DNA from: Rhodococcus opacus B4
GTDB taxonomy: Bacteria > Actinomycetota > Actinomycetes > Mycobacteriales > Mycobacteriaceae
Direction of reading: 5' to 3'
Length of the DNA: 64,000 bases
Assembly (NCBI RefSeq): GCF_000010805.1
Contig: NC_012522.1
Span: 6,014,001-6,078,000 of the forward strand
The notes below the pieces were generated by a model. It saw nothing but the letters and a program-made list of their open reading frames with translations, was not told the DNA's origin and ran no database searches. Below, one piece after another: positions 35,263-64,000 of the stretch. Numbering within the stretch: the first letter of the stretch is position 1; every line of letters begins with the position of its first letter. Position numbers and translations under genes: made by a program.

Positions 35263-36711
35263 TCATCGGGCGAGCAGGGCCTCGCAGGACCGCGCCGCAC
35301 ACGCGCACGCCTGCACCGTCGCGGTGTCGATGGTCGGGCGTCCGGCCTGCGACCGCCAGAACCGCAGGGCCGTCAGCGCGACGCGGGAGATCTGCTCCGG
35401 GGCGGCGTCGGCGGGCATCCCGAGGCGGGTGTGCGGCGACATGCCCTCCCCGCCGAGCACCCGCTCGAGCAGGACGACGTCCGAGTCCCGTAGCTGCAGA
35501 CCACTCGAGCGCAGGCCCGACAGCACCCGCAGCTCCCGGAAGACGTGGGTGTCGGCGAGCAGGCGGTCCGCCGCCCGGCTCAGGGTGCGGCTCGCCGACG
35601 ACGGGGTGCGGGCCAGCACCGCCTTCAGCGTCCGGAGCGCCGAGTGCGCCTTCAGTTCCGTGCTGCGCTGACCGAACTGCAGGTGCAGCGTGCGGCGCAG
35701 GTCCTCGAGGCCGCTGTGCGCCGTCAGCTCGCGGGCCAGCACGGGCGCGTCGGTCGCGCCTGCGCGGATCAGCACGACCGCGAACCGGATACCGAACAGG
35801 CCGAAGGAATCGAGAAGGTCGCGCCGCTGCCCAGGCGACAGGACGAGGTCGGTGTTCTCCGCCCCGAACCGGGTGATCGAGCGCAGGGCGGACTCGAGCA
35901 CGCTGTCGGGAACGGTGGCGAGCACCGCCAGGTCGTCGAACTCGGTCTGACGCAGCGTGCGACCACGCAGCGCGAGAAGCCCCGACACGGGCAGCAGGCT
36001 GCGTTGCACCCGCCGACCCGCGTCGTCCGCGGCGGCCCGGGCCGCGTCGAGGGTGCGTTCACGTCCACCCTTCACCTCGTCGGCCCGCGACAGCACCCCG
36101 ACGATGCCGAGCGGCCCGGCGGCCGTGCCGACCCGGGTCTGCAACTGGTCGAGCAACCGCACGTCCGCGCCGTCGGTGCCCCGCGTCAGGTAGACGACGG
36201 CGTCGACGTCGCACGGCCCGTCCTCGGGGAGGAGCAGCGCCCGGGTGCGCGCCGACACGTCCCGCGAGTTCGACGACGTCCCAGGCGTGTCGACGAGCGT
36301 GAACTCGCCGAGCAACGCCGACGGCCACCCCACCTGCAGCCGCTCCACCCGGTCCGCGGTAACCGCGCCGAGGTCGAGCGAGAGCCTGCCCTCGTCCCGG
36401 TGCACGGGCAGTCGCGTCCGGCGTCCGGAGTCGTGGGTGAGATCGATTCGCGGCGTGGTGGACTGCTCGAACCAGGTGACCACCCGGGTGCACTCGGTGG
36501 CGTCGGTGGGCGCGATCTCCTCGCCGACGAGGGCGTTGAGCAGCGTCGACTTACCGGCCTTCAGCGTGCCGGTGAGCGCGACGCGGAGTGGTTCCTCGAG
36601 GCGGGCGCCGCAGTGCCGGAGTTCTTCGACAGTGGCGGGGTCGCTGCGCAGTTCGTGCCGGGCGGCATCGATCAGCTGGCGGGTCTGGGAGCCCAGACGG
36701 GTGACGCTCAT
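35263..36711 (-). CDS. IniC-like dynamin-family GTPase, copy 1
   Basis: 482 residues. The G1 P-loop is intact: LTGTLKAGKSTLLNALVG (~45-62). G2-like TDATECTRVVTW, G3 VDTPGTSSNSRDVSART and G4 SRADE are all present. Helical C-terminal half; no strong TM helix. It matches the IniC-like protein at 62699 closely in motif text and order (M. tuberculosis IniC is about 490 residues). The start ATG 36711 overlaps the stop of the IniA-like gene (ATGA), so it is the last gene of a three-gene operon. Dynamin-like proteins of this type act in pairs at the membrane; a partnership with the upstream IniA-like protein is inferred. Confidence 0.87.
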   Translation of the reverse strand: MSVTRLGSQTRQLIDAARHELRSDPATVEELRHCGARLEEPLRVALTGTLKAGKSTLLNALVGEEIAPTDATECTRVVTWFEQSTTPRIDLTHDSGRRTRLPVHRDEGRLSLDLGAVTADRVERLQVGWPSALLGEFTLVDTPGTSSNSRDVSARTRALLLPEDGPCDVDAVVYLTRGTDGADVRLLDQLQTRVGTAAGPLGIVGVLSRADEVKGGRERTLDAARAAADDAGRRVQRSLLPVSGLLALRGRTLRQTEFDDLAVLATVPDSVLESALRSITRFGAENTDLVLSPGQRRDLLDSFGLFGIRFAVVLIRAGATDAPVLARELTAHSGLEDLRRTLHLQFGQRSTELKAHSALRTLKAVLARTPSSASRTLSRAADRLLADTHVFRELRVLSGLRSSGLQLRDSDVVLLERVLGGEGMSPHTRLGMPADAAPEQISRVALTALRFWRSQAGRPTIDTATVQACACAARSCEALLAR

Positions 36712-38453
36712 GCCGCGACCTGACCCGCGAATCCGGCGGCCTGCAGTCGGATCTGCCGCAAGGTGTCGAGTTCCGTGCGGATCTCCGCGGACCGCGTCGC
36801 ACGGTGATCGTCGTGCATCTTCGACGCGTCCGTCGCCGCGCGCAGCGAATGGTCGACGGAACGGAGCATCTCGTTCGCCAGGTCGGTGAAGTGGTCGCGC
36901 AGGACGCGTTGCACCTCCCGCAGTCGCTGCTTCGATTCCTTTCCCACCTGGAAGATCACGTCGTCCATCAGCCGCGACACCGCCACCTTCGCCTCCGCCT
37001 GCCTGCGGGCGGTGCGCGCCTTGCGGTCCTCGCGGTACGTGTTGGCACCGAGCAGCACTCCCGCGCCGATCGAGAAGGGATTCACCAGCGCCAGGCCGGC
37101 CAGGCTCGTGACGAGACCGACCATCAGCACGCCGCCGTACGACCCGCGCATGCTGGACAGGACGCGCTGGGTGAAACCCTGCGCACTCTCCAGGGATTCG
37201 AGAGTGTTCACGGGTTCGAGCACGTGATCCACGTTGTCGATGCGCAGCGCGGGCACCGGGACCTTGCCGTCCTCGGCGAAGCGTTGCGCGACCGACAGCG
37301 CCAGATCCTGCGAGCGGGTGTGGGCCATCACGAAGTTCTCCCGCACGCACGTCGCGATCTCGCCGTCGAGCCAGGAACCGAACTCCTCCCATCGCGGTGC
37401 CGGGTCGGACTTGCCGATGTCCTCCTCCGCCGCGCGGATGACGGTGCGCAGACGATGGCGCAGGTCGTGCTCGATGTCCGTCATCAACTCGATCGCGCCG
37501 TCGGCCAGCGTGTACTGCCAGTTCGCGGATCGCTGGCGGAGCTGATCCGCCGCCGTGCGGGCCCGGGTCATCTGCTCGACGAGAGCGGCGCCGCGCTGCG
37601 GATCACGCAGCGTGTCCAGTTCGGCGCTCAGCGACAGCGACAGGTGGTCGGTGACGGTGCGGACATCGGCGATCACCGAATTGCGGAGCACGACATCCGC
37701 TTTCGCAACCACCTGGGCGCGGAGATAGTCGACGAGCTGCGGGATGCCGGATTCGACGTCGAGTGCGTCTTCGCCCGACTCGAGCGCGTCCGCGTGCATC
37801 ACCGCGGACACCGGCAGCAGTGGCAGCGCGAGATCCGCATTCTGCAAGTGGGTGCGGTTGGCTTTCTGGATGTCTGCCCACCGCGGATAGAAATCGATCT
37901 TGTTGACGACGCAGATCACCATCGGGCACAGCTTGTACACCTGCGTGAGCAGGGCGACCTCGGGTTCGGTGTATTCCTGACTCGCATCGGACACGAACAG
38001 CACCGCATCCGCCGTGGGGACCAGCGCCAGCGTGTCCGCCGCGCGGGCCGGAGCGTGACCGGAGAAACCGGGTGCGTCGACCAGCACCAGACCCTCCGCG
38101 AGCAGGTCGTGGGGGAGGGTCACCGTCGAATCCGGGTCCGGCGCGACAGGTCCGTACTCGACGACCACCGGCTCGTGCCGCGACCGTGCCGCCGCCGACA
38201 CGTCCGCGTCGACGAGCGCACCGGCCACGGAGCTCACACCCTTGTCGGTCAGTCCGAGCACCACCACCCGCGTCCGCGGATCGGCGAGGCGAGACTCGGT
38301 GTGCGACAGCCGGGTCAGGAGATCACCGCGGCCCGCGGTTCGGGTCAATGCCGCCAACTGCGACAGCAGCGCCGCCATCGACGCGGTGGTCTCGGCGGGA
38401 AGATTCGGACGCACTGGGGCGCCCACGGCTGGGGATTCGAGGGTGGCGTTCAT
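36708..38453 (-). CDS. IniA-like dynamin-family protein with degenerate P-loop, copy 1
   Basis: 581 residues. It aligns by eye along its length with the IniA-like protein at 60858: VLVDAPGFSGHAPARAADTL, DAVLFVSDASQEYTEPE, VNKIDFYPRW, the helix TRARTAADQLRQRSANW, a membrane hairpin (GGVLMVGLVTSLAGLALVNP, ~437-475) and a terminal helix bundle. M. tuberculosis IniA is a dynamin-like protein that fissions membranes. The G1 motif is degenerate: VVVLGLTDKGVSSVAG lacks the Gly-Lys-Ser of GxxxxGKS, although G3 (DAPG) and G4 (NKID) persist. Start ATG 38453 has GGAG 5-8 nt upstream. It is coupled to iniC by a 4-nt overlap. GTP hydrolysis may be lost, leaving a partner role. Confidence 0.85.
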   Translation of the reverse strand: MNATLESPAVGAPVRPNLPAETTASMAALLSQLAALTRTAGRGDLLTRLSHTESRLADPRTRVVVLGLTDKGVSSVAGALVDADVSAAARSRHEPVVVEYGPVAPDPDSTVTLPHDLLAEGLVLVDAPGFSGHAPARAADTLALVPTADAVLFVSDASQEYTEPEVALLTQVYKLCPMVICVVNKIDFYPRWADIQKANRTHLQNADLALPLLPVSAVMHADALESGEDALDVESGIPQLVDYLRAQVVAKADVVLRNSVIADVRTVTDHLSLSLSAELDTLRDPQRGAALVEQMTRARTAADQLRQRSANWQYTLADGAIELMTDIEHDLRHRLRTVIRAAEEDIGKSDPAPRWEEFGSWLDGEIATCVRENFVMAHTRSQDLALSVAQRFAEDGKVPVPALRIDNVDHVLEPVNTLESLESAQGFTQRVLSSMRGSYGGVLMVGLVTSLAGLALVNPFSIGAGVLLGANTYREDRKARTARRQAEAKVAVSRLMDDVIFQVGKESKQRLREVQRVLRDHFTDLANEMLRSVDHSLRAATDASKMHDDHRATRSAEIRTELDTLRQIRLQAAGFAGQVAA

Positions 38454-38541
38454 GATCTCCGCAAGTGTCGGTGACGGGCATTCGAGAGAGGGGAGTGGCG
38501 GGCCCGCATGCAGGGGAGTCGGCGGACCCGCCACGTCGGGG

Positions 38542-39909
38542 TCAGAACACGTGCTGGTCGACGGTCGTCGTCGCAGTCAGGCTCTGATCGTGGGTGTCGA
38601 GCGTGGTGCCGGAATCGGCCGTCAGCCCGGACGAGAGGCTCGTCGCGCTCGTCGAATCCAGCGATGTGCCGGTGTCGAGTGTGGTGCTCGAGTCGTACGA
38701 GGTGGTCGAGTCGTATGAGCTTGTGGTGTCGGTGGTTGCCGCGGTACCGGTGTCGGTCGTTGCGGTGTCGTGGCTGAGACCCGTGTCCGCTGCCATGTCC
38801 GTGAGGGTGCTGATCGCGGAACTCTGGTCCGTCGACGTGGGATCACTGCTCGCCGTCGTGGTGGTGGACGGGGTTGCCTGCGACTGGCCCAGGTCGGCGG
38901 TCGGCGCCGTCGCCGTGGTGGCCGCCGCCGTCTGCGTCGCCGTGTTGTCGTCGGCCGTGCTGTGGGTCGTGTTGTTCTCGGTCGTCCCGGTGGAAGTGGG
39001 GGTCGTCTGCGATCCGCCGAGATCCGCGGTGGGTGCTGTCGCATTCTGCGTGGTGGCGGCGGACGTCGCGCCGGCCGCAGTGGCCGTGGTCTGCGAGGCG
39101 TGCGCCGCCTCGTCGCCGGAGGCCGTTGCTGCCTCCGGGCTCCGCGTATTCTGCTGCGTCGTAGAGGTTTCCGAAGTTGCGGTTGTGCTCGTCTGCCGGA
39201 TCGTCGTGTCGAGAGGCTGCGACGTCGCAGCCGCATCGGAATGGGTCGACACCGGAGTCGCCGTGATCGGCTGGGCCGCGGACGTCGCCGTTGCGGGCGC
39301 AGTATTCGCGGCCGGAGTGGCGGCGGCAGGCTGCATGGCAGAGGCGGTCGGCGAGGACACCGACGCCGTCTGGCTCAGCGTCGTCGGCTGCGTCGCAACC
39401 GGGCTGCCCTGGTTGAACGAGGGCTGAGTCGCGGAAGGGCCTCCCGAGTTCACCGACTCGCCGCGGCCCGGGTTGCCGAACGACGCCGACGCGCCGGGCT
39501 GCGCGTTCTGGTGACCTGACCCCGCTCCGACGGACGCTCCCGAGTTCGACGCGCCGTGTGCGTCGGTCGCGGTGTCGTTTCGGTGGGCGGTGTTGTCCTC
39601 GTGGACCTGGTTGCCGGAGGGTGCGTGGTTGTCGTGGCCTGTGCTGTCGAGACCACGGCTGTCGTGGTCGCGGGTTTCGCCGGCAGGGCGCGAATTCTGT
39701 TGCGGCTCATCGTGCTGAGCAGGCTGTCCGCCGGTCGGGTTGATGGGACGGAGGTCGCGCAGGAGCCCGTCGAGTCCGTCGCGCAGAAGGTCCGCCGCAT
39801 GGGGCGCGCCGCCCAGGTCGGGCTGCGGTGCCCGGGCTTCGGTCGCGGCGTGCAGGGCGGGAACATCGTGTTCGATGACGGCCGTGGGGTGGACTTCGCT
39901 TCTCGTCAT
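38542..39909 (-). CDS. Thr/Ser/Ala/Asp-rich low-complexity protein in the IniB position, copy 1
   Basis: 455 residues. The first ~60 residues are normal in composition (a helix with DLLRDGLDGLLRDLRPINP). The rest is low complexity: Thr, Ala, Ser, Gln, Asp, with many TTD, ATT and SSYDSTTS-like units. No signal peptide or TM helix is visible. AAGGAG lies ~8 nt before ATG 39909. It is the first gene of the operon that continues with the IniA-like gene 88 bp on, the place held by iniB in the other operon (57286). Its composition differs completely from that Gly/Ala/Leu-rich protein and I see no shared repeat. The function is unknown; a disordered scaffold or surface protein is inferred. Confidence 0.72.
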   Translation of the reverse strand: MTRSEVHPTAVIEHDVPALHAATEARAPQPDLGGAPHAADLLRDGLDGLLRDLRPINPTGGQPAQHDEPQQNSRPAGETRDHDSRGLDSTGHDNHAPSGNQVHEDNTAHRNDTATDAHGASNSGASVGAGSGHQNAQPGASASFGNPGRGESVNSGGPSATQPSFNQGSPVATQPTTLSQTASVSSPTASAMQPAAATPAANTAPATATSAAQPITATPVSTHSDAAATSQPLDTTIRQTSTTATSETSTTQQNTRSPEAATASGDEAAHASQTTATAAGATSAATTQNATAPTADLGGSQTTPTSTGTTENNTTHSTADDNTATQTAAATTATAPTADLGQSQATPSTTTTASSDPTSTDQSSAISTLTDMAADTGLSHDTATTDTGTAATTDTTSSYDSTTSYDSSTTLDTGTSLDSTSATSLSSGLTADSGTTLDTHDQSLTATTTVDQHVF

Positions 39910-40131
39910 GAGTGTGCTCCTTCATCTCGGGTTGCCTTCGAGGCGACTGCCGACGACGGTATGGACCATTCCTGGGAAGACCATGGGAGGACGCTGCACC
40001 TTCCCTAGGGGCGTTCGCCGCCACGCACACAGGAACATCGCAGGAAGCGCACAGCGGTCGGTACAGGAAGGCGGTCTAGCGTTTCGATCGGCAGGAAAGT
40101 CGCCTGCCGTACACGGAATGGAGATCACGGC
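39910..40131. promoter_or_regulatory. Divergent control region between iniB-like copy 1 and Hsp70-like copy 2
   Basis: 222 bp between two divergent starts. It contains a 7-bp perfect dyad CGGCAGG-N7-CCTGCCG at 40089-40109, 22 bp before the Hsp70-like ATG, placed like an operator over a promoter or leader. No clear -10/-35 pair was fixed by eye. Confidence 0.4.
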
Positions 40132-41646
40132 ATGCGGACATCGATGGGGATCAGCATGGGTTCCGACTCGTTCGTGTCCGCACAGGTGCACGGTGAATCG
40201 CAGGCGCACCACGAGCACGACGGCTTCACGGTGGTTCGGCACTCCGCCGAACTGGCGTTGTCGTCGAGCAGCGCACCCTCCCTCGGGCCGCATCGTGCCG
40301 GTCCGCTTCCCCAGGGCAGCATCGTCTTTCGCGACTTCATCGACCGAGTCGGTGACCCCGTTCCGGTGATCGGCGACGACGGGACCCGCACCCCGGCCGT
40401 GCAGTTGGTAACCACCGCGCTCGACTGTCTGATTCGGGGCCGCGCCCCCGCGCCCGACCAGGTGGTGGTCGCGGCTCCGGCAGGCTGGTCGGGGTATGCG
40501 GTGGAGGAACTCGAGGACGAGATCCGCCGCTGGGGTCTGCTGCAGAACCGCACCGTCACCGTCATCCCCGAAACCACCGCGGCACTCACGTGGATCACCC
40601 GGGTCGAGAAGCTCGACGATTGCGACACCGTACTGCTGTGCGACATCGGAGCCCACTCCCTCGACCTGACCCTGGCCACCAGGCGCGGCGCCGAATTCGG
40701 TGTGCTCCCGTCGACGCGGAGCACCCACTTCAGCGGCGACCACGCCGACCGGCTCCTGATGGGACATGTGGTCGCGTTGGTGCAGAACGCGAACCCGGAC
40801 TTCGACGTCGACGATCCCGCGCACCGCGGAGCGGTGGCCGAACTCGCGGCCCGCTGCCGGATCGCGAAAGAACGGTTGTCGCAGGACACCTCCGCCGTGG
40901 TGACCGTCGAGCTTCCCGGCATCCGCCGCCAGATACGGGTCATGCGTTCCGAATTCGAGGACCTCATCCGCGGGTCGCTCACTCACGCCGCGAACACGGT
41001 GGCACGCGAACTCGAACGACTCGCCGAGACCGGCACCCCCGCCGACGCCGTCGTCCTCCTCGGCGGCGGAGCGGCGGTTCCCCTCGTGACCGAACTGCTG
41101 TCGACCGCCGTGGACGTCCCCCTCGTCGTCTCGCCGGACCCGGCGACGGCCTCCGCCCGCGGCGCGGCGGTCATCGCCGAGCGCGCATCGCTCCGGCCGT
41201 CGGGTTCCCGGGTGATGTCGGCGCCGGGACCGCGGGTGCAGCCGCCGGCGGCGCCGCGACCGATCGCGTCGGCAGCGTCGCGTGTGCTGCCTCCGTCGGC
41301 ACCCGCCGCGGTGCCGACCAGGGACGTTTCCCCTCCCAGAACGCTTGTCACACCGGCTGCCGCCCCGGCCGCGAAGACGCCGAGGTCGGGGATCCGGGGC
41401 TGGATGGTCGCGGCGAGTGCCGCCGCGCTCGTGCTCCTGGGCGCCGGCGCGGCAGCGACCCAACTGATCGGCCAGGACGACACACCCTCGGCAACGACGA
41501 CGACCACCTCGTCCGTGGAACAGGCATCGTCCGCCGACCAGACCGCGCAGGACGACACGTCGCAGGAATACACCGTGCAGAACCCGGCGCCCGCTCAGCC
41601 GATGGGCGGCGGTGCACCGGGACGCGGCGGCGCCGGACCGCGGTAG
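40132..41646 (+). CDS. Hsp70-like (actin-fold ATPase) membrane protein, copy 2
   Basis: 504 residues. The phosphate-2 motif VLLCDIGAHSLDLTLA (~165-180) and adenosine motif VVLLGGGAAVPLVTELL (~304-320) are clear. The N-terminal phosphate-1 region is only weakly kept (MGISMGSDSFVSA). A helix RIAKERLSQDTSAVVTVELPG corresponds to the Hsp70 subdomain II style. There is no peptide-binding domain. Instead there is a Pro/Ala/Ser linker, a TM helix (MVAASAAALVLLGAGAAATQ, ~424-445) and a Thr/Gln/Gly-rich outer tail. GGAG lies ~10 nt before ATG 40132. It is divergent from the iniB-like gene, mirroring the pair at 55080/57286. Motif similarity to copies at 24054 and 55080 supports one family; function unknown. 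Confidence 0.82.
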   Translation: MRTSMGISMGSDSFVSAQVHGESQAHHEHDGFTVVRHSAELALSSSSAPSLGPHRAGPLPQGSIVFRDFIDRVGDPVPVIGDDGTRTPAVQLVTTALDCLIRGRAPAPDQVVVAAPAGWSGYAVEELEDEIRRWGLLQNRTVTVIPETTAALTWITRVEKLDDCDTVLLCDIGAHSLDLTLATRRGAEFGVLPSTRSTHFSGDHADRLLMGHVVALVQNANPDFDVDDPAHRGAVAELAARCRIAKERLSQDTSAVVTVELPGIRRQIRVMRSEFEDLIRGSLTHAANTVARELERLAETGTPADAVVLLGGGAAVPLVTELLSTAVDVPLVVSPDPATASARGAAVIAERASLRPSGSRVMSAPGPRVQPPAAPRPIASAASRVLPPSAPAAVPTRDVSPPRTLVTPAAAPAAKTPRSGIRGWMVAASAAALVLLGAGAAATQLIGQDDTPSATTTTTSSVEQASSADQTAQDDTSQEYTVQNPAPAQPMGGGAPGRGGAGPR

Positions 41647-41650
41647 AGGA

Positions 41651-41688
41651 CAGCGATGCCCCCACCGATCACGGTGGGGGCATCGCTG
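41651..41688. terminator. Bidirectional hairpin terminator between convergent genes
   Basis: Perfect 17-bp stem (CAGCGATGCCCCCACCG and its complement) with a 4-nt ATCA loop, between the ends of the Hsp70-like gene (41646) and etfD (41703). It is symmetric and suits both strands; T tracts are short. Confidence 0.85.
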
Positions 41689-41702
41689 TTCACTGCTGTC
41701 GG

Positions 41703-44987: not shown

Positions 44988-45055
44988 GTCGCGGCCTTTC
45001 GTTTCAGGGCGGCAGGGCGGCCACCTCGGGACTGCTCGTGATCCTAACGCTTGCT

Positions 45056-45102
45056 AAGTTACCCGTCGGTAACTTATTAAGCCTACCTGCGGGTAACTTA
45101 CC
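45056..45102. promoter_or_regulatory. Double palindromic operator upstream of etfD
   Basis: AAGTTACC-CGTC-GGTAACTT at 45056-45075 is a perfect 8-bp dyad. GGTAA-C-TTACC at 45092-45102 is a second palindrome of the same half-site. On the minus strand a TAGGAT (-10-like) lies just downstream of the first dyad, so a bound repressor would cover the -35 region of etfD. The pattern is typical of TetR-family sites; the regulator is not in the window. Confidence 0.7.
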
Positions 45103-45608
45103 GGGTTCGAGTGGGATATCTGCAGCTGGGGCGCCGATGAGGCATGTGGTGCATGCCACACTCGGACTTTCTGTTTGCCACGTTAAAGGGTCGAAATTGC
45201 GGCGTTCACCCAAGGTCGCCCTAACTTCGGCAGACGGCTGCACGAGACCGTTCGAGACCTCTCTGCAGACGCACTTCGGCGGCCATTTCGGTCACGAATT
45301 CAGCGCGGTTACGTTGCGGTGGGATAACGATGGGCCAAATATTCCGCGGATGGAAGTCGCGGTTACCGGAAATCGGTCCGACAGGACTAATTCACGCCAT
45401 GTAATTCGTGCGAATTACGTTGCGTTCGGCCAACTGCCGACCGGCGCCCTTCGCGCCGATGAATTTTTCGTCAATGAACAATTCGGCCGTGATTCCGCTG
45501 TTACTCTGAGCGTGTTTTCCGGCCCTGGTCAGCGGTCGCAACGGGGGTCGTGCAGTGCGCTTCTACCACATCGGTACTTCGTCGCGTCGGTCCTGAAATG
45601 AGGCATCA
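45103..45608. other. Gene-poor AT-richer intergenic region with palindromes
   Basis: No supported gene. An open frame covers 45038-45601 on the plus strand but has no Shine-Dalgarno, coding composition or domain. Two dyads stand out: GGCATG-N5-CATGCC at 45141-45157 and the perfect GTAATTCG-TG-CGAATTAC at 45401-45418. The latter is ~190 bp before the first secreted-protein gene and operator-like. TTACTCT near 45500 may contain a -10 element. Confidence 0.45.
45401..45418. promoter_or_regulatory. Perfect 18-bp palindrome, candidate operator
   Basis: GTAATTCG-TG-CGAATTAC. Its low GC content in a very GC-rich genome and its perfect symmetry make chance unlikely. It is nearest to the secreted-protein gene at 45609; MarR- or TetR-type binding is possible. 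Confidence 0.5.
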
Positions 45609-47014: not shown

Positions 47015-47060
47015 TCCAGTTTCCAAGGGCGCGTGCGCCCAGTGAAAGGTGTGAGTGTTC

Positions 47061-51826: not shown

Positions 51827-52993
51827 TCACTGACCTGGACTTATCGCAGCCGGCGGTGTGGTCGTCGTCGTGGTGGTGACCGCGGCCGCGGGTGCCTTCA
51901 GCGTCGTCGTGGTTGTTGTCGTAGCGGTGGTGGTGGTCGTCGTCACCGGCGGAGTCGTCGTGGTCGTCGCGGCGGTCGTCGTCGTGGTGGTCTGGGGAAC
52001 CGTGGGGATCGAGGGCAGGGTGATCACCGGCGTCGTCGTCGGCGGAGGCGGGGGCGGAGGCGGCGGCACGAACACGGATGTCGTCACGACCGGTGCCGGC
52101 GGGGGAGCGACCGGGGCCTCCACCTCCGTCGTCACGGCCACCTCCTGCGTGCTCGCCGTCGGGAAGACCGCGGGCGCGACCGGAGTGGGTCGCGCGGCCG
52201 ACGTCGTCGTCACCGACGCGGTCTGGGCGTCCTGGATCGACGGGACCACGGTGCTGCCGTTGCTCGTGAGCGCGAACGCGACCGCCCCACCCGCCACCAC
52301 GAGTGCGGCCGCGGCGACGCCGGCGATGATCAGCGGACGGCGGTCGGGGCGCTTGGCGGGTGTGGTCGGTGCGGACGCCCCCGTCGCGGCGGGCGGAACC
52401 GCGTCGGCGGACGCCGCAGCAGCGGCCGGCACCGCCGTCACGGCGGAGTACGCGGTGTGCAACGGGGCCTCGACGACGGGAATCGACTCGGTGTCGGCGC
52501 TCGTGTCCTCGTCGGTCAGCGCCAACCCGGCCGCCAGCAGCGCCGCCCCGTGCGCCGGGGACTCCGGTGACGCGGCGAGTGCCACCGACTCCGGGATCAG
52601 CGTCGCCTCGCCCAGACCCATGTAGTCGAGCGATTCACGCAGCTTGGTGACGATCTCCGGCGCCCAGTCCGACGGATGGGTCGCCGTGACCTTCACCGTC
52701 CCGGACAATCCGTCCGCCGCCTCCCGGAACAGACAGAACATCGCCGTCGCGACGAGGTCCTCGGCGCGGGTCAGGGAACCCGCGTACTCGATGCCCGCGG
52801 GCTCCCCGACGCGTGCGAGGAAGTCGCGGACGGCGCCGGTCGACTCCGTGCCGGGATCGCCGAGCTGCACGGAGCCGTCCGGGGCCGTGAACAGGACGGA
52901 TGGGTGTTCGATCGTCCTCACGTCGGTTCCGGAAGCGGTCACCACCGCTGTGGAAACCGAATCGCCGACGGTGAGTCCGACTCCGGTGGTCAT
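51827..52993 (-). CDS. Truncated Hsp70-like membrane protein with Thr/Pro-rich tail (copy 3, degenerate)
   Basis: 388 residues. The first ~150 residues match the N-terminal lobe of the other Hsp70-like proteins: VGLTVGDSVSTAVV (phosphate-1 region), DFLARVGEPAGIEY, DLVATAMFCLFREAADG, TATHPSDWAPEIV and GEATLIPESVALA. After that the phosphate-2 and adenosine motifs are absent. A short Ala/Pro linker leads to a TM helix (LIIAGVAAAALVVAGGAVAF, ~221-244) and a tail of poly-Pro and poly-Thr runs. AAGGA lies 6 nt before the ATG. It could not bind ATP as an actin fold does; a pseudo-sensor or partner of the copy at 55080 is inferred. It is downstream of the LuxR gene but separated by a hairpin. Confidence 0.75.
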   Translation of the reverse strand: MTTGVGLTVGDSVSTAVVTASGTDVRTIEHPSVLFTAPDGSVQLGDPGTESTGAVRDFLARVGEPAGIEYAGSLTRAEDLVATAMFCLFREAADGLSGTVKVTATHPSDWAPEIVTKLRESLDYMGLGEATLIPESVALAASPESPAHGAALLAAGLALTDEDTSADTESIPVVEAPLHTAYSAVTAVPAAAAASADAVPPAATGASAPTTPAKRPDRRPLIIAGVAAAALVVAGGAVAFALTSNGSTVVPSIQDAQTASVTTTSAARPTPVAPAVFPTASTQEVAVTTEVEAPVAPPPAPVVTTSVFVPPPPPPPPPTTTPVITLPSIPTVPQTTTTTTAATTTTTPPVTTTTTTATTTTTTTLKAPAAAVTTTTTTTPPAAISPGQ

Positions 52994-53083: not shown

Positions 53084-53133
53084 CACCCGTGAGTACTTGT
53101 CAACCGCGGGCGGTCAAGAAGTACTCACGGGTG
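53084..53133 (-). terminator. Hairpin spanning the LuxR stop codon
   Basis: 15-bp perfect arms CACCCGTGAGTACTT (53084-53098) and complement (53119-53133) enclose 20 nt that hold a further ACCGC/GCGGT pair. One arm lies inside the last LuxR codons and the stop at 53114 is in the loop. Probable terminator between the LuxR gene and the truncated Hsp70-like gene. Confidence 0.65.
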
Positions 53134-55072: not shown

Positions 55073-55079
55073 CGGCGCC

Positions 55080-56927: not shown

Positions 56928-57285
56928 GTTCCACTCCTGTGGTCCGGGCGGGCGTCACGCCGCCTGTGTCAGACGGACGGTACCGCCGTCGTATGTGACG
57001 GCCGGGGCCGTCGTGGTCACTCGAATTGTCGCGTGCGGCGGCCGTTTCGTTACGCCGATGCGCAGGTCGACGGCAGTTACGGGGCCGAGCCCCTAATGCC
57101 CCCCTATCCCCTAACGGCGGGGGCCCGACCCCCGGTGGGAGATCCCCGATGCCGGGGTCCGCGAGTAGGGGGCGCCGCCCCGTTGGGAAGGGGGCCGCCG
57201 ATCCATAACGTGTATTTCACTCGCCGTCACAGCAGTTGTGGTGGCCACCCGAACTCCCCGAACCTCGACCACAGGAGAGATTGCC
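56928..57285. promoter_or_regulatory. Divergent control region of Hsp70-like copy 4 and iniB-like gene, with hairpin cluster
   Basis: 358 bp. At 57081-57181 four short GC hairpins stand in a row: GGGGC-N3-GCCCC (57081-57093), GGGGG-N5-CCCCC (57119-57133), CCCCG-N4-CGGGG (57144-57157) and GGGGC-N3-GCCCC (57169-57181). An AT-richer stretch (57200-57240) before iniB is the likely promoter. ACAGGAGAG is the iniB Shine-Dalgarno. No gene is supported here. Confidence 0.5.
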
Positions 57286-60200
57286 ATGGCTACCAACGCC
57301 GTCCTCGACTTCATCCTCGGCCTTCTTCGCGACGAGCAGGCTGCGGCGGCCTACTGCGCCAACCCGGCCGACGCGCTGTGCGCCGCCGGCCTGCAGGGTG
57401 TGAGCCACGCGGACATCGTCTCCGTCGCTCCCCTGGTCGCGGAGTCGGGACTGTTCGCAGGCAGCGGGGCCGACCTGGCCGCGATCGTGAACGCCGGTGC
57501 GGATGTCGCCGGTGACGTCGCCGGCGGTCTCGGCGCAGGTGTCGGTGGCGCCCTCGGCGGGGGTCTCGGCGGCGGCCTCGGTCTCGGCGGCGGCCTCGGC
57601 GGTGCGGTCGGAATCGGCGCCGGCGCAGGCCTCGGTCTGGGCGCCGGCCTGGGCGGCGACTTCGACTTCGCCGCAGAACTGGCGGCCGGTCTGAGCGCCG
57701 CGCTCGGCGCCGCGCTGGAAATCGGCGGCGAGATCGGTGCGCAGCTCGGTGCCGCGCTGGGTGCGGCCCTCGACGCGGCACTCTCCCTGACCGGTGGCCT
57801 GGACCTCGGCAGCGCCCTCGACCTCGGTGCCGTGATCAGCGGAGCCCTCGGGGGAGCGCTCGGACTGGGCACCGACCTGACCGCGCAGCTCGCCACCACC
57901 CTCACCGCGGCGATCACGGCCCTGCCGGTGGTCGACGTGGCCGGTGGTCTCACCGGGATCCTCGCGCCCGCACTGTCGATCGGCGGCGACCTCGGCGCCG
58001 ACCTGGGTGCGGCTCTCGGTGCCGCCCTCGGAAGCGTCGTCGACCTCGGTGGCAGCGTGGACGGCGACATCCTCGCCGGACTCGGAGCCGGCCTCGACCT
58101 CGGCGGCGTGCTCGGAACGACCCTCGGCAGCGTGCTCGGTGTGGACGCCGGTCTCGGTGGCGCGCTGGGCGGCGCCCTCGACGCGGCGATCGGCGCCGGC
58201 GGCGGACTGGGTGCGACCCTCGACGGCCTGCTCGGCGGTGAACTGCTCGGCGACGTCGCCGGTTCGCTCGGTGGTGTCCTCGGCACCGACCTCAGCGCGG
58301 TCCTCGGTGGCGCGCTCGGCGGTGTCCTCGGTGCGGGCGGCGACCTCGGCGCAGACCTCGGCGGCGCGCTCGGCGCGACGCTCGGGTCGATCGCGGACCT
58401 GGGCGGCGGACTGGACCTCGACGCGATCCTCGGTGCGGGCGGCAGCCTCGGCGGCGCGCTGAGCGGTCTGCTCGGCGGCGAACTCGGAGTCGGCGGCGAC
58501 CTCACCGCCGGTCTGGGCACCGCGCTGGACGCGGTCCTGGGTGCCGGTGGCGGACTCGACCTCGGTGCCGTGCTCGGTGCCGAAGGTGGCCTGGGTGGTG
58601 CGCTGAGCGGCATCCTCGGTGGTGTCCTCGGCGCCGGCGGCGACGTCAGCGGTGATCTCGGTGGAGCCCTGGGCGGTCTGCTCGGCGGCGCGCTCGACCT
58701 GGACGGCGGCCTCGGCGGCGCACTGTCCGGTGCACTCGACAGCGGTCTCGGACTGGATGCCGCACTCGGCACGGTCCTCGGCGGCGCCCTCGGCCTGGAC
58801 GGTGGCCTGGCCGCCGAACTGGGCAGCACCCTCGACGCCGCGCTCGGTGCCGGCGGCGTGACGGGCATCGACCTCGGTGGCCTGCTGGACGGCGGACTGG
58901 ACCTCGGTCTGGGCGGCGACCTCGGCCTCGGCGGAGAACTGACATCGGAGCTGACGACGGCGCTGAGCGGTGCCCTCGGTCTGGGCGGCGAGGCAGGGGC
59001 GAACCTGGGAACGGTTCTGGGCGGCGCGCTGGAGAGCGGCCTCGGGCTGGGCGGTGTCCTCGACACCGGTGCCGATCTGGGAACCACGATCAGCAGTGCG
59101 CTCGGCGGCGCCCTCGGAGTCGACGGTGACGCGACCGCCGGTCTGGGCGCGGCGCTCGACGCGGTGCTCGGTGCGGACGGCGGGATCGACCTCGGCGGCG
59201 CGACCGACCTGGGTGGCGTGCTCGGCGGTGCGTTCGGTGCCGGTGGCGCCGCGGGCGCCGATCTCGGCGCGGCCCTCGGCGGAGTGCTCGGCGGTGCGCT
59301 GGAGACCGGCGGCGCTCTCGACCTCGACAGCGTCCTCGGTGCGGAAGGCAGCATCGGCAGCACGCTGGGCACCGCACTCGGCGGCGTCCTCGGAGCGGAC
59401 GGCGACCTCAGCGCGACCCTCGGTTCCGCACTGGAGACGGCGCTGGAGGCCGGCGGCGGGCTCGACCTCGACTCCGCCCTGGACGCCGATCTCGGACTCG
59501 ACGCGGCGGCCGGTGTGGGTGGCGCCCTGGACGGTGCGCTCGACGCGGGCACCGGACTCGCGGGTGGCTTGACGAGCGGCATCGACGGTGCGCTGGGCGG
59601 ACTGCTCGACGTGGGTAGCGACGTCACGGGCAACGTCGGCGGTGCCGTCGGCGGCGGGGTGGCGGGCGGCGCGGACGCTGCGGCCGGCATCGGGGCCGGT
59701 GTCGCGGCGGGTGTCGGTGCTGTTGCCGACGCCGGAGCGGACCTGGGCGGCAGCCTCGGAACCAACCTGGTCGGCGGACTGGACACGGCCGGTGGCCTGG
59801 GTGCCGGTCTGACCAGCGGCCTCACCGGTGGTCTCGGCGGAATCTTCGACACCGGTGCGGGCCTCGGCTCCGCACTGACCGGCAGCGTCGGCGGTGCCGT
59901 GGACGCGGTCGGCGAGGCGGGCGCCTCGGTCGGCGCGGTCGCCGACGCCGGTGCGAGCCTGGACGCGAACCTCGGTGGCGCCCTGGACACGGCGGCCAAC
60001 CTGGGCGGCACTGTCGGTGGCGCCCTGGACACGGCCGCGAACGTCGGCGGAAGCCTCGGCGGCACCGTGGACGCCGCTGCCGGAATCGGCGGCGACGTGG
60101 CCGGCGGAATCGAAGGCAGCGTGGACAGCGCCGTCGACGCCACCGCAGGTCTGACCGGTGGCCTGGACGCCACCACCGACGCGGCCGCCGACCTCGGCGC

Positions 60201-60687
60201 CGGATTGTCCGGTGGCGTGAGTGGTCTCGGATCGCTCGGCACCTCGGTCGGCGGCGCCCTCGACGGTGCCGTCGGTGGCGCGGTCGACGGTGCCGTCGGT
60301 GGCGCGGTCGACGGTGCGGTCGACGGGGGAGCCGCTGTGGGTGGCGCTCTCGACGGCGCAGCATCCGCCGGTGGATCGGTCGCGGGTGGCGCTTCCGCCG
60401 GCGCGGATGCCGCCGCGGACGCCGGCACGGACGGTTCCGCGGACCTCGGAGCGGTGGGCGGCGCCGTCGCCGACACCACCGGTTCGATCGCCGGCGGCCT
60501 GGGATCCACCCTGGGCGGTGCCGTCGACACCGGGGCCGACACCTGGTCGTCGATCGACGCGGACAACGCGTTCGGCGCCGACTCGGGCCTGCACGCGGAC
60601 ACCGACGGTTCGCTGTTCGGCGACACCGACTCCTCGGTGGACCTTTCGCACGACGTCACGGGCGTGGTCGATCACCTCGAGCCGTGA
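57286..60687 (+). CDS. iniB: IniB-like protein with conserved N-terminus and very long Gly/Ala/Leu/Asp repeat region
   Basis: 1133 residues from ATG 57286, AGGAG 9 nt upstream. The first ~60 residues (NAVLDFILGLLRDEQAAAAY, CANPADALCAAGLQGVSHAD) match the IniB N-terminal pattern of mycobacteria. The remaining ~1070 residues are low complexity: short units such as GGDLGADLGGALGAT and GLGGALGGVLG repeat with drift, later changing to GNVGGAVGG and GAVDGAVGG forms. No signal peptide or TM helix is seen, though the repeats are mildly hydrophobic. M. tuberculosis IniB is ~480 residues, so this one is more than twice as long. It heads the iniB-iniA-iniC order, separated from iniA by a hairpin. Induced by cell-wall drugs in mycobacteria; molecular role unknown. 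Confidence 0.82.
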   Translation: MATNAVLDFILGLLRDEQAAAAYCANPADALCAAGLQGVSHADIVSVAPLVAESGLFAGSGADLAAIVNAGADVAGDVAGGLGAGVGGALGGGLGGGLGLGGGLGGAVGIGAGAGLGLGAGLGGDFDFAAELAAGLSAALGAALEIGGEIGAQLGAALGAALDAALSLTGGLDLGSALDLGAVISGALGGALGLGTDLTAQLATTLTAAITALPVVDVAGGLTGILAPALSIGGDLGADLGAALGAALGSVVDLGGSVDGDILAGLGAGLDLGGVLGTTLGSVLGVDAGLGGALGGALDAAIGAGGGLGATLDGLLGGELLGDVAGSLGGVLGTDLSAVLGGALGGVLGAGGDLGADLGGALGATLGSIADLGGGLDLDAILGAGGSLGGALSGLLGGELGVGGDLTAGLGTALDAVLGAGGGLDLGAVLGAEGGLGGALSGILGGVLGAGGDVSGDLGGALGGLLGGALDLDGGLGGALSGALDSGLGLDAALGTVLGGALGLDGGLAAELGSTLDAALGAGGVTGIDLGGLLDGGLDLGLGGDLGLGGELTSELTTALSGALGLGGEAGANLGTVLGGALESGLGLGGVLDTGADLGTTISSALGGALGVDGDATAGLGAALDAVLGADGGIDLGGATDLGGVLGGAFGAGGAAGADLGAALGGVLGGALETGGALDLDSVLGAEGSIGSTLGTALGGVLGADGDLSATLGSALETALEAGGGLDLDSALDADLGLDAAAGVGGALDGALDAGTGLAGGLTSGIDGALGGLLDVGSDVTGNVGGAVGGGVAGGADAAAGIGAGVAAGVGAVADAGADLGGSLGTNLVGGLDTAGGLGAGLTSGLTGGLGGIFDTGAGLGSALTGSVGGAVDAVGEAGASVGAVADAGASLDANLGGALDTAANLGGTVGGALDTAANVGGSLGGTVDAAAGIGGDVAGGIEGSVDSAVDATAGLTGGLDATTDAAADLGAGLSGGVSGLGSLGTSVGGALDGAVGGAVDGAVGGAVDGAVDGGAAVGGALDGAASAGGSVAGGASAGADAAADAGTDGSADLGAVGGAVADTTGSIAGGLGSTLGGAVDTGADTWSSIDADNAFGADSGLHADTDGSLFGDTDSSVDLSHDVTGVVDHLEP

Positions 60688-60751
60688 TGAAACGGCGGTT
60701 CCGGCATCCCCCAGACGGGGCGGCCGGGACCGCCGTACGATGTAACGAAAT

Positions 60752-60786
60752 CAGCCCCGGACGCGTTATGCGTGCGGGGCTGTTTT
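60752..60786 (+). terminator. Intrinsic terminator or attenuator between iniB and iniA
   Basis: CAGCCCCG-G-ACGC, loop GTTAT, GCGT-G-CGGGGCTG then TTTT: 12 paired bases with a single mismatch and a T run, a rare textbook form for this GC-rich DNA. It lies 64 bp after iniB and 71 bp before iniA, so transcription into iniAC would be partial. Confidence 0.75.
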
Positions 60787-60857
60787 CCACAGTCGGGTGT
60801 CGGGGCGCCGAACAGGTGCCCGCACGAGGTCGGAAGAATTGCGGGTCAACGAAGCTC

Positions 60858-62702
60858 ATGGACAGTGCAGCCGCCGAGAAGAGTCCAGCCGGGTCGCAGT
60901 CGATGACGGCGTTGCTCGAGCAGGCCCTGGGCGTGGCGAAGCGGTTCGGTCGCGGCGACCTGGCGCAGCGCCTCGACTCCGCCCGGACCCGCGTCCAGGA
61001 CCCGCGGATGCGGATCGTGGTGGTCGGGCCGCTCAAGCAGGGCAAGAGCCAGTTCGTGAATTCCCTGCTCAATCTCACCGTGTGTTCGGTGGGGGACGAC
61101 GAGACCACCGCGATCCCCACCGTCGTCCAGAATGCGGAGACCGCGTCGGCCGAACTCGTCCTCGCCGATCCGGGTGCCGACCCGATCCGGGTGCCCCTGC
61201 CCCTCGACGAGCTGAACGGCATCACCCCGGCCTCGCCCCGCGCCGGGGGCCGTGAGGTGCTGCGGGTGGAGGTCAACGTCCCGAGTCCACTTCTCGCCGA
61301 CGGGCTGGTCCTCGTCGACACACCCGGGGTGGGCGGCGCCGGCAACCCGCACGCCGCGAGCACACTCGGGCTGATTCCGGCGTCCGACGCCGTATTCGTC
61401 CTGTCCGACGCCAGCCAGGAATTCACCGAACCGGAGCTCGGTTTCATCCGTCAGGTCACCAGCCTGTGCCCGTCGGTGGCGTGCCTGATCAGCAAGACCG
61501 ACCTGTACCCGCACTGGCGCGAGATCGTCGAGGCCGACCGCGGGCACCTCGCGCGCGCGGGCCTCGACGTTCCGCTCATCCCGATCTCGTCGGTGCTGCG
61601 TTCGCACGCGCTGCGACTGCAGGACGAGGAACTCAACACCGAATCCGGTTTCGTCGAGCTGTACGCCTTCCTGCGCGACCGGGTGGTGGCCCGGGCCGAG
61701 GCGAACACCCGCCGGGCCGTGTCGCTGGACGTGTCGTCGGCGGCCGAGCACCTCACCCTGGGGATCGGCAGCGAGCTTGCCGCCCTGCGTGATCCGGCGA
61801 AGGGCGCCGCCGCGGTGGCGGAACTGCAGAAGGCGAAGGCCGCCGCCGAGGAACTCCACAAGAAGACGTCGCTGTGGCAGCAGACGCTCGGCGACGGCAT
61901 CGCCGACCTCGCCGCGGACATCGACCACGACCTGCGGGACCGGTTGCGCCGCGTCACCCGGGAGGCGGAGGAGACCGTCGACGAGGGCGACCCCGGCAAG
62001 GACTGGGACGCGCTGGGGCAGTGGCTCGAGCAGGAGTTCGCGACCGCGATCGGCGACAACTTCGTCTGGGCGCACGACCGCGCCCTCTGGCTGGCCGAGG
62101 TGGTCGCGCAGCATTTCGCGGAGACCGGTTCCGTCGAACTGCCGCATCTGGACGTCGCCGACGTGGACGGGGTCCTCGAACCCGTGGCCTCGCTCGCCGA
62201 CCTCGAGGCGGGACGCATCGGCATCACGCAGAAGGTCCTCGTCGGTATGCGCGGGTCCTACGGCGGCGTCCTCATGTTCGGTCTGATCACCACCATGATG
62301 GGCATGGCCCTGGTCAATCCGATCTCGATCGGCGCCGGAGTCCTGCTGGGCACCAAGGCGTACCGGGAAGACCGGGAGAGCCGGATCCTGAAGCGCCGGG
62401 CGGAGGCGAAGACAGCGATCCGGCGGTTCGCCGACGACGCCAGCTTCCAGGTCGGCAAGGAGTCGAAGGATCGGCTCCGGTCGATCCAGCGGCTGCTGCG
62501 CGATCATTTCACCGCCATCGCCGAGCAGGCGCTGCGTTCGATCAACGAGTCGCTGCGGGCCGCGCAGGAGGCGGCGAACCTCGAATCCACCGAACGGACC
62601 CGCCGCATCGCGCAGCTCGAGAAGGATCTGCACGTCGCGTCCGCACTGAAACAGCAAGCGGCGCAACTCGTCGCGGGCGACGCGGGAGCGGTCACGGCAT
62701 GA
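60858..62702 (+). CDS. iniA: IniA-like dynamin-family GTPase, copy 2 (intact P-loop)
   Basis: 614 residues from ATG 60858; the frame is open back to 60684 but that part crosses the terminator. Motifs are G1 VVVGPLKQGKSQFVNSL (~56-72), G3 VDTPGVGGAGNPHAA, G4 SKTDLYPHW, DAVFVLSDASQEFTEPELGF, the helix AAEELHKKTSLWQQTL, a membrane hairpin (GGVLMFGLITTMMGMALVNP, ~470-505) and a C-terminal helical bundle. M. tuberculosis IniA (~640 residues) is a bacterial dynamin-like protein that binds membranes through such a loop and fissions them. Its stop overlaps the iniC start (ATGA). The gene is the intact counterpart of the degenerate copy at 36708. Cytoplasmic, membrane-associated. Confidence 0.9.
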   Translation: MDSAAAEKSPAGSQSMTALLEQALGVAKRFGRGDLAQRLDSARTRVQDPRMRIVVVGPLKQGKSQFVNSLLNLTVCSVGDDETTAIPTVVQNAETASAELVLADPGADPIRVPLPLDELNGITPASPRAGGREVLRVEVNVPSPLLADGLVLVDTPGVGGAGNPHAASTLGLIPASDAVFVLSDASQEFTEPELGFIRQVTSLCPSVACLISKTDLYPHWREIVEADRGHLARAGLDVPLIPISSVLRSHALRLQDEELNTESGFVELYAFLRDRVVARAEANTRRAVSLDVSSAAEHLTLGIGSELAALRDPAKGAAAVAELQKAKAAAEELHKKTSLWQQTLGDGIADLAADIDHDLRDRLRRVTREAEETVDEGDPGKDWDALGQWLEQEFATAIGDNFVWAHDRALWLAEVVAQHFAETGSVELPHLDVADVDGVLEPVASLADLEAGRIGITQKVLVGMRGSYGGVLMFGLITTMMGMALVNPISIGAGVLLGTKAYREDRESRILKRRAEAKTAIRRFADDASFQVGKESKDRLRSIQRLLRDHFTAIAEQALRSINESLRAAQEAANLESTERTRRIAQLEKDLHVASALKQQAAQLVAGDAGAVTA

Positions 62703-64000
62703 GCGCCGCGCCGCTGCACGAAGCCCGCGCGCTGATCGCGTCCGCTCGCCGGCTGTACGCGGGCAGTCCCGACATCCGGGATCAGCTGGGCGGATGCGCC
62801 CGGCGACTGGAACAGCCGCTGCGGGTGGCGCTGGCCGGCTCGCTGAAGGCGGGCAAGTCCACGCTGCTCAATTCCCTGGTGGGGCAGGACATCGCGCCCA
62901 CCGACGCGACCGAGTGCACCCGCGTCGTCACCTGGTACCGCAGCGGGTCGACGCCCACCGTGACGGCGTGGTACCAGCCCGAGCCGGGCACCGGGGCACA
63001 GCGTTCCGCCAACGTGCCGGTGCTGCGCCGGGACGGACACCTCACGTTCGACCTGGGCCACCTCACCGCCGATCAGGTGGACCGCCTCGATGTGGAGTGG
63101 CCGTCGTCCGCGCTCGCGCACACGACCATCATCGACACCCCCGGCACGTCCTCGCTGTCGCGGGACGTCTCGGCCCGCACCCTCGAGATGCTGACCCCGG
63201 ACAACGAGGCGTCCGGCGCCGACGCCGTGGTCTACCTGCTGCGCACCCTCAACGCGACCGACGTCCAGTTCCTCGGCCAGATCGGCGACCACGTGGGCGA
63301 CGAGTCGGGGCCACTCGGCGTGGTCGGTGTCGTGTCGCGCGCCGACGAGGTGGGGGCGGGCCGGCTGGACGCCATGATGTCGGCGAAGGAGGTGGCGTCC
63401 CGGTTCGCGGGCGAACTCGAACGGACCGGGCTGTGCCAGGCCGTCGTCCCCGTCGCGGGTCTGCTGGCGCTCGGTGCCCGCACGATGCGACAGGCCGAGT
63501 TCGCCGCGTTCCAGCACCTCGCCGAGGTCCCGGTGGACGATCTGAACCTGGCGATGCTGTCGGCCGACCGGTTCGCGCGGGAGGACAGTCCGCTGCCCGT
63601 GGACGCGCGGATGCGGGCCCAGCTGGCAGACCGCTTCGGGCTCTTCGGGATCCGGATGGCCGTCACCCTGATCCGGCTGGGCACCAAGGACTCGCCGACG
63701 CTGGCGGCCGAACTGGTGGAACGCAGCGGGCTCGACGAACTGCGTCAGGTGATCGACATCCAGTTCGGGCAGCGGGCCGATCAGTTGAAGACCCACTCGG
63801 CGCTCGTGGCGCTCAAGCGGGTCCTCACCGCGCATCCGCTGCCGGGGGCGAGCGACATCCTGATGTCGGCCGAACGGCTGCTGTCCGACGTGCACGGTTT
63901 CCAGGAACTGCGCCTGCTCGGGCGGCTGCGGTCCACCGAGGTGGGACTGCCCGCCGACGACGTCGCCGAGCTGCAGCGCCTGATCGGCGGGTTCGGAATC
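62699..64000 (+). CDS. iniC: IniC-like dynamin-family GTPase, copy 2 (3' end beyond window)
   Basis: 434 codons are visible and the frame is open at the window end. The ATG overlaps the iniA stop. Motifs are G1 LAGSLKAGKSTLLNSLVG (~46-63), TDATECTRVVTWY, G3 IDTPGTSSLSRDVSARTLEM and G4 SRADEVGAG. It shares nearly the same text with the IniC-like protein at 35263 (KAGKSTLLN, APTDATECTRVVTW, GLFGIR, LIR). By comparison with the 482-residue copy only ~50 residues are missing. Together with IniA it makes a dynamin-like GTPase pair. Confidence is high for the family, less for equivalence to M. tuberculosis iniC. Confidence 0.88.
   Translation, partial: MSAAPLHEARALIASARRLYAGSPDIRDQLGGCARRLEQPLRVALAGSLKAGKSTLLNSLVGQDIAPTDATECTRVVTWYRSGSTPTVTAWYQPEPGTGAQRSANVPVLRRDGHLTFDLGHLTADQVDRLDVEWPSSALAHTTIIDTPGTSSLSRDVSARTLEMLTPDNEASGADAVVYLLRTLNATDVQFLGQIGDHVGDESGPLGVVGVVSRADEVGAGRLDAMMSAKEVASRFAGELERTGLCQAVVPVAGLLALGARTMRQAEFAAFQHLAEVPVDDLNLAMLSADRFAREDSPLPVDARMRAQLADRFGLFGIRMAVTLIRLGTKDSPTLAAELVERSGLDELRQVIDIQFGQRADQLKTHSALVALKRVLTAHPLPGASDILMSAERLLSDVHGFQELRLLGRLRSTEVGLPADDVAELQRLIGGFGI

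Follow-up and report, generated by a model that had tools for sequence, protein, structure and literature searches.

Mycobacteria respond to envelope stress caused by isoniazid and ethambutol through the IniR-IniBAC system. In Mycobacterium tuberculosis, iniR is Rv0339c and iniBAC is Rv0341-0343. Activation of iniBAC by IniR was reported for the M. marinum and M. tuberculosis proteins; IniR is MalT-like, its overexpression suffices for iniBAC induction, and it binds upstream of iniBAC, its chromatin immunoprecipitation (ChIP) peak lying directly upstream of that operon, which was the only one induced (Boot 2017, PMC5760070). The M. marinum protein consists of an AAA+ domain (residues 24-247), a MalT-like region (470-731) and a DNA-binding domain (745-812), and the same paper compares IniR with MalT, which is bound to an uptake system, the maltose transporter, and is then released (Boot 2017, PMC5760070). 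Induction of iniBAC follows the ATP level, with the ATPase domain of IniR suggested as the sensor (Shetty and Dick 2018, PMC6104191), and both trehalose and ATP have been proposed as ini signals (Boot 2017, PMC5760070; Shetty and Dick 2018, PMC6104191). Here we analyze a 64,000-nucleotide stretch of the Rhodococcus opacus B4 genome (the window; contig NC_012522.1, positions 6,014,001 to 6,078,000), in which an ini locus lies beside a gene for an Hsp70-like membrane protein.

The right-hand ini locus of the window has the same genes in the same divergent layout as the mycobacterial system. Compared with that system, it adds a conserved Hsp70-like membrane gene upstream of iniR (copy 4 of the window), to which a truncated one downstream is often added, and its IniR has no ATPase domain. 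The arrangement recalls MalT-MalK of E. coli, where a MalT-type activator (helical repeats plus a LuxR domain) has a membrane-associated partner of nucleotide-binding fold, and by this analogy the Hsp70-like protein might bind IniR. MalK, however, is an ABC ATPase, whereas the candidate partner here has an actin/Hsp70 fold with its own transmembrane (TM) anchor and a tail predicted to lie outside. With DnaK and the Hsp70 chaperones it shares a homologous nucleotide-binding domain, but the Hsp70-like family has no substrate-binding domain, is TM-anchored and has lost D8 and K70, which are catalytic residues of DnaK. We favor, with about even confidence, the view that the Hsp70-like protein works specifically for the Ini envelope-stress system as one of its conserved components. 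It would be a pseudo-Hsp70, anchored in the membrane and made together with IniR, that relays the envelope or nucleotide state to IniR. Genome comparison establishes the conserved link between this gene and ini; the mechanistic steps given further below are what we infer from it.

The regulator gene and its Hsp70-like neighbor

The regulator gene had been described in an earlier note on this DNA as LuxR. It does encode a LuxR-type C-terminal DNA-binding domain (GerE, E 3.6e-14), but judged by its sequence it is really IniR, the published activator of iniBAC, and the right-hand set is a standard ini locus. The product matches the IniR model NF038181 at E 8.7e-146 over profile positions 186-824 of 827. 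Its score of 487.4 bits is below the curated equivalog cut-off of 750 bits, a cut-off that is tuned to a narrow group, since just 6 of the 151 family genomes searched pass it. The layout is also that of iniBAC, with an IniB N-terminal domain, IniA and IniC in order and divergent from the regulator unit. That the window IniR activates iniBAC is predicted from its position and from a candidate operator. The profile alignment and the reading of start codons give no N-terminal AAA+/STAND ATPase domain in the window IniR: iniR likely starts at a GTG (55072) 7 bases past the Hsp70-like stop codon, which leaves no room for such a domain. Because the profile match begins at position 186, the domain map of Boot 2017 indicates that most of the ATPase domain is missing.

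IniR was searched in the 151 genomes of the GTDB family, the 18-kb surroundings were fetched, and genes were mapped with profiles built in this analysis. The family set comprises 81 iniR loci from 80 genomes, six of which stop less than 3 kb upstream of iniR, leaving 75 usable loci. It can be seen that the Hsp70-like gene is directly upstream of iniR on the same strand in 73 of the 75, and that iniB is divergent in 71; among the 73, L045 (at a contig end) and L052 are partial matches and L060 matches profile positions 52-342 only. At the two exceptions, L087 and L093, the gene lies elsewhere within the ini locus. By chance, nine Hsp70-like places would give about 0.001 genes on the strand of iniR and no more than 2 kb upstream of it; a search of the 8.83-Mb genome with copy 4 gave ten matches, including one tail-only low-complexity match and DnaK itself. 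The co-occurrence and divergent adjacency that the earlier note had looked to genomes for are therefore far above chance.

The linkage extends beyond the family. At the further loci of the Mycobacterium group (g29), 7 of 8 have the Hsp70-like gene upstream of iniR, and in the eighth, L175, it is beyond iniC. For the rest of the order, 200 genomes were searched and 41 of the 45 IniR matches outside the family were fetched (the main copy of G218, and G230, G212 and G200, were left out). An Hsp70-like gene was directly upstream of iniR in 35 of the resulting 40 usable loci, five of the 35 being weak matches (E 1e-21 to 6e-28); in L142 it is still divergent from iniB, while iniR is beyond iniC. 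In the class, IniR was found in 27 of 296 genomes at a threshold of E 1e-30, ten of them in other orders. In each of these ten, an Hsp70-like match (E 1e-52 or better) shares contig and strand with iniR and is at most 6.3 kb away, in four genomes upstream and in six downstream, the downstream distance being 4.6-6.2 kb. The functional tie between ini and the Hsp70-like protein is thus far stronger than the two copies in the window would suggest. A collection of named genomes was also searched with an IniA alignment; 80 loci were fetched, 16 of which do not reach iniR, and the layout was present in 64 of the 64 with iniR in view, although these are largely the same species as the family set and so not independent.

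Presence and absence gave a similar result. With thresholds of E 1e-50 for the Hsp70-like protein and E 1e-30 for IniA, 75 of the 151 family genomes have both IniR and the Hsp70-like protein, 5 have IniR alone, 5 the Hsp70-like protein alone and 66 neither (Fisher p 3e-30, which is optimistic because the genomes are related). The IniR-only genomes include four with iniR at or near a contig end (G091, G098, G132, G133) and one with a partial match (G011). All 80 family genomes with IniR also have IniA. In the open-licence full-text literature, the scope of our literature search (subscription papers and preprints lie outside it), one printed sentence refers to a 'dnaK-like' gene beside iniR; the main text of the 2026 HpoR paper (PMC13413693) mentions neither dnaK nor Hsp70.

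Protein features, branch lengths and the shared promoter

The Hsp70-type nucleotide-binding fold of copy 4 is supported by its Pfam match (Table 1) and by matches to Hsp70 chains in the PDB at E about 1e-16. No substrate-binding domain is present: the Pfam match ends at profile position 373 of 599, and beyond it the protein continues with a TM-like stretch and a tail of low complexity. In all 70 full-length iniR-linked members the TM-like stretch occurs, at residue 372-464, which agrees with the earlier description of a TM-anchored protein without a peptide-binding domain. The tail after it has 84-312 residues and is rich in P, A, T, G, S and V. The net charge is more positive before the TM-like stretch in 64 of the 70, and this suggests that the nucleotide-binding domain is cytoplasmic and the tail outside. 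In an alignment of the 70 members with the authentic DnaK proteins of these loci (residues numbered as in the DnaK of L062), D8 was kept in one and K70 in none. In contrast, the phosphate-2 Asp (D171) and its G173, the adenosine-loop glycines 315 and 316, G202 and D206 are kept in all 70, and the E148 position is E or D in 68. Residues invariant within the family but specific to it include R-V-G-D-P at 72-76 (RVGDP) and AKExLS, and in the tree the family forms its own supported clade apart from DnaK. One basal member, at L087 (G031, 792-3062), keeps D8, K70, T11, T176 and R319, and the IniR P-loop there has no lysine; it is a single case, and perhaps an intermediate between DnaK and the degenerate family.

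A truncated gene often follows iniR. In the family loci, 31 Hsp70-like genes come directly after iniR, and for 29 of them the match extends no further than profile position 183 of 350; a downstream copy was seen in 35 of the 64 named loci. The window has such a half-Hsp70 gene, whose product is similar to copy 4 only across the latter's first ~150 residues (phmmer E 4.7e-18) and gave no match in a Pfam scan. It may act as a decoy or a modulator.

Loss of the IniR ATPase is not confined to the window. The 91 family IniR pieces comprise 62 with the P-loop G/A-x4-GK[S/T], 12 without its lysine and 17 short ones; two of the latter (L086, L089) are cut by contig ends, so that the ATPase domain is absent in 15. 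All 15 family loci with an ATPase-less IniR have the Hsp70-like gene upstream. On a quick tree of 92 IniR cores, absence of the domain requires at least 6 changes, and absence together with dead P-loops at least 10; this tree gave long-branch warnings, and in it L086 is labelled P-loop-bearing although its N-terminus is cut and L052 was so labelled by eye. The short piece L146 is an artefact of in-frame overlap, L164 and L165 are poorly aligned there, and L214 of the named collection, with an artefactual negative gap, is to be excluded from the 18 rows listed there as ATPase-less. Because repeated losses of the domain or its P-loop left the Hsp70-like gene in place, the nucleotide switch of IniR is predicted to be dispensable in several lineages that retain this gene. 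At L049 and L054 a second, shorter iniR-like gene stands in tandem, its P-loop intact and its central part deleted.

Branch lengths of the four proteins were fitted on one tree of 81 loci, of which 157 branches were kept, with no control gene in the set. The partial correlation was 0.53 (0.40-0.64) for Hsp70-IniR, 0.38 (0.15-0.54) for Hsp70-IniA and 0.28 (0.17-0.40) for Hsp70-IniC; the others were 0.43 (IniA-IniC), 0.12 (IniR-IniA) and 0.13 (IniR-IniC). Taken at face value, these values would make the Hsp70-like protein the link between the regulator and the dynamins. An Fe-S reductase homologue, which is in 61 of 134 loci and full-length in 51, served as a control gene in a subset of 32 usable loci. 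Two control-gene branches were extreme outliers; after dropping the four branches with a ratio above 3 (57 of 61 kept), the control correlated with the ini proteins at 0.70-0.77 and the ini proteins among themselves at 0.88-0.93.

The intergenic region between the Hsp70-like gene and iniB was extracted from 112 loci (71 from the family, 41 other or extra). CCCCTA occurs in 109 of these regions and CCCCTAA in 93, against 3.65 expected from composition shuffles. The commonest arrangement is a direct repeat 18 bases apart (37 neighboring pairs), mostly 100-200 bases before iniB. In the 8.83-Mb genome, CCCCTAA-N11-CCCCTAA occurs a single time, in the window between copy 4 and iniB, and the reversed-pattern control gave 0 matches. 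Because Boot 2017 places both the IniR ChIP peak and the sole induction at iniBAC, the repeat pair is likely the IniR operator, as predicted from its sequence and position.

The left-hand set and other paralogues

The earlier note had described two ini-type sets, each head-to-head with an Hsp70-like membrane protein, and all of these genes were recovered where it had put them (Table 1).

Table 1. Coordinates of the ini-type genes, Hsp70-like genes and candidate operator in the window
Feature	Position	Strand	Remarks
iniC-like, dynamin-family GTPase	35263..36720	-	Dynamin_N E 1.1e-11; IniC profile 35269-36690; P-loop intact
iniA-like, P-loop degenerate	36708..38534	-	Dynamin_N match limited to 91-167; lysine lost relative to right-hand IniA
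Low-complexity gene in iniB position	38542..39909	-	no Pfam or NCBIfam match
Hsp70-like membrane protein, copy 2	40132..41646	+	HSP70 E 3.2e-17; TM-like stretch at 425; divergent from left set
Truncated ('half') Hsp70-like gene after iniR	51827..52993	-	~150 first residues of Hsp70-like domain, then TM-like stretch and P/T-rich tail
iniR without N-terminal ATPase domain, ~652 aa	53114..55072	-	winged-helix/helical-repeat part and LuxR DNA-binding domain
Hsp70-like membrane protein, copy 4, 615 aa	55080..56927	-	Pfam HSP70 E 8.9e-22; upstream operon neighbor of iniR; degenerate Hsp70 nucleotide-binding domain 1-350, TM-like stretch ~424-442, Pro/Ala-rich tail
Candidate IniR operator CCCCTAA-N11-CCCCTAA	57090..57114	+	shared Hsp70/iniB promoter region
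iniB	57286..60687	+	IniB N-terminal domain (NF038175, IniB_NTERM, E 1.7e-20), then long Gly/Ala/Leu-rich repeats
iniA, dynamin-like GTPase	60684..62702	+	PDB 6j72 E 7.4e-187; Dynamin_N E 1.6e-13
iniC, dynamin-like GTPase	62699..64000	+	IniC profile match from 62717; approximate start; runs past window end

The right-hand IniA matches the membrane-fission dynamin IniA (PDB 6j72, 6j73) over its whole length and is 98-99% identical to IniA of Rhodococcus koreensis, R. jostii, R. opacus and R. wratislaviensis; its conserved core is 60894-62672, and the true start is probably later than that of the listed open reading frame (ORF). The left-hand IniA has a degenerate P-loop in comparison, the lysine being missing both in the window and in G023, a genome of the R. 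wratislaviensis group, so that it is probably without a working GTPase. The start of the left iniC-like gene is approximate (the listed ORF extends to 37392 across iniA), and its counterpart in G023 is 94% identical; the left pair is possibly a pseudo-GTPase IniA plus a working IniC. In the iniB position, an NCBIfam scan did not find the IniB N-terminal domain in the low-complexity gene, which is fast-evolving, being 47% identical in G023 as against 94% for iniA. Copy 2 forms a long branch in the Hsp70-like tree.

What had been called a duplicated system is accordingly paralogous in its left half, and to that extent the description stands. However, this half is in only 2 of the 10 genus genomes (by IniA; the window genome and G023), carries no iniR, and has neither the IniB N-terminal domain nor the intact IniA P-loop of an iniBAC set. 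The CCCCTAA-N11-CCCCTAA pair was looked for at the left-hand set and is not present there. Its intergenic region contains a single CCCCTA half-site within CCCTAGGGG, which is also in G023, but this conservation is uninformative because the whole region is nearly identical there. By these sequence features the left set is a divergent side system, a narrow paralogue rather than a plain duplicate.

The pairing of the Hsp70-like protein with any IniA-type dynamin was considered and rejected as a general rule, and in that general form the earlier claim is not supported. In the genus g23 there is a second, divergent IniA type (~40% identical; seen at L181 of G082) with neither IniR alongside nor an adjoining Hsp70-like gene. 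Four g23 genomes whose only IniA is of the divergent type (G022, G082, G096, G109) lack IniR and also lack an Hsp70-like match at E 1e-50. Several g23 genomes have Hsp70-like genes 9-15 kb from the divergent IniA; at L181, where the interval was read, the two are separated by ~13 kb that holds unrelated genes such as an AsnC-type regulator and transport genes.

Elsewhere in the window, another divergent Hsp70-like gene (copy 1, 24117-25469; HSP70 E 7e-11, with a TM-like stretch) lies ~10 kb left of the left-hand ini set, and its N-terminal part is not matched by the Hsp70-like profile. A very large nonribosomal peptide synthetase (NRPS) gene occupies 3236-19147, with condensation, AMP-binding and PCP domains within the first 2000 aa.

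Competing explanations and a possible mechanism

The earlier note had the Hsp70-like protein either sensing the envelope or organizing the dynamins at the membrane. Sensing is kept in the relay that we favor, and the position upstream of iniR points to regulation at least as much as to the dynamins. In such a relay, the N-terminal domain would be in the cytoplasm and the Pro/Ala/Thr-rich tail outside in the wall. The cytoplasmic domain would bind the helical-repeat region of IniR, holding it inactive or priming it, as in MalK-MalT. Envelope damage would alter the complex, being sensed via the tail, the nucleotide state of the domain or the adjoining dynamins, and IniR would then bind the CCCCTAA repeats, switching on iniB-iniA-iniC and possibly its own operon. 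It is because the ATPase domain of IniR was lost repeatedly that we propose the Hsp70-like membrane protein as the conserved relay. Where IniR has no ATPase domain, the predicted Hsp70-like fold is the only nucleotide-binding fold left beside the DNA-binding regulator, which makes it the first candidate to consider when explaining why iniBAC induction was reported to depend on ATP.

Several observations weigh against this relay. M. tuberculosis presumably has no Hsp70-like gene upstream of Rv0339c, yet IniR works there, and IniR can therefore do without the Hsp70-like protein. Among the fetched order loci, L160, L166, L167 and L180 have no Hsp70-like gene in view, L166 and L180 being the second iniR copies of their genomes. 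In the rearranged loci L087, L093, L142 and L175 the gene is away from iniR, and its staying with iniB in L142 fits a dynamin partnership equally; copy 2 faces an iniA-iniC set without iniR. The adenine site is altered, E240 being lost in most members and R319 replaced by A or S in most, so that ATP binding by the domain is plausible but itself uncertain, and because the catalytic residues are missing from both folds in this genome, an ATPase cycle is unlikely. Finally, in the 32-locus control subset the Hsp70-IniR correlation was 0.25 and Hsp70-IniC 0.43, so that IniR was not singled out.

The strongest competitor, which we regard as rather unlikely, is that the Hsp70-like protein is a structural partner that recruits or orders IniA and IniC (and IniB) at the damaged membrane, its cotranscription with iniR being incidental. 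It would account for copy 2, which pairs with iniA-iniC in the absence of iniR, for L142, where the gene stays head-to-head with iniB although iniR has moved, for L087, L093 and L175, where it is beyond iniC, and for the six of ten other-order genomes with the gene several kb downstream of iniR; the Hsp70-IniA and Hsp70-IniC partial correlations also stay above zero. However, by far the commonest layout puts the gene in the transcription unit of the regulator rather than in that of iniBAC, IniR gives the strongest correlation, the divergent-IniA loci of g23 lack an adjoining Hsp70-like gene, and the four genomes with that IniA only lack both IniR and an Hsp70-like match.

A client-specific chaperone or assembly factor, acting on the long repetitive IniB or on the dynamins, seems improbable to us. 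Hsp70 ancestry, the very long, low-complexity IniB and the catalytic residues kept by the basal member at L087 speak for it, but the substrate-binding domain is absent, D8 and K70 are lost in nearly all members, and no dedicated J-domain gene was found among the families searched, though not all neighbors were scanned. It is very improbable that the gene is a functionless neighbor, an old tandem dnaK duplicate that has remained near ini. Of the 81 family loci, 12 have authentic dnaK (MARAVGIDLGTTN) in the flank that was fetched, and in this genome it is ~18 kb to the right of the window (L179, 12389-13444); the family may descend from a local dnaK duplicate. Against the absence of function stand the separate clade with its own invariant residues, the persistence of the gene with ini through several rearrangements and in other orders, and its absence from 66 of the 71 genomes without IniR.

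Returning to the relay, a wider form of it is possible but doubtful: an Hsp70 that spans the membrane and is catalytically dead would be, in the Mycobacteriales and some other orders of actinobacteria, the envelope-stress sensor that reads the ATP or cell-wall state for a MalT-type activator, replacing the activator's ATPase domain in several lineages, with the half-Hsp70 as a modulator. If this is true, the Hsp70 fold would have given rise to a new kind of transmembrane signalling receptor, an unusual use of that fold as a membrane signalling part. The apparent absence of the gene from its usual place in the main model organism may explain why it has been overlooked. For the drug-induced ini response, the Hsp70-like gene offers a concrete and easily deleted candidate for the missing sensor, together with a predicted operator, in Rhodococcus, which is harmless.

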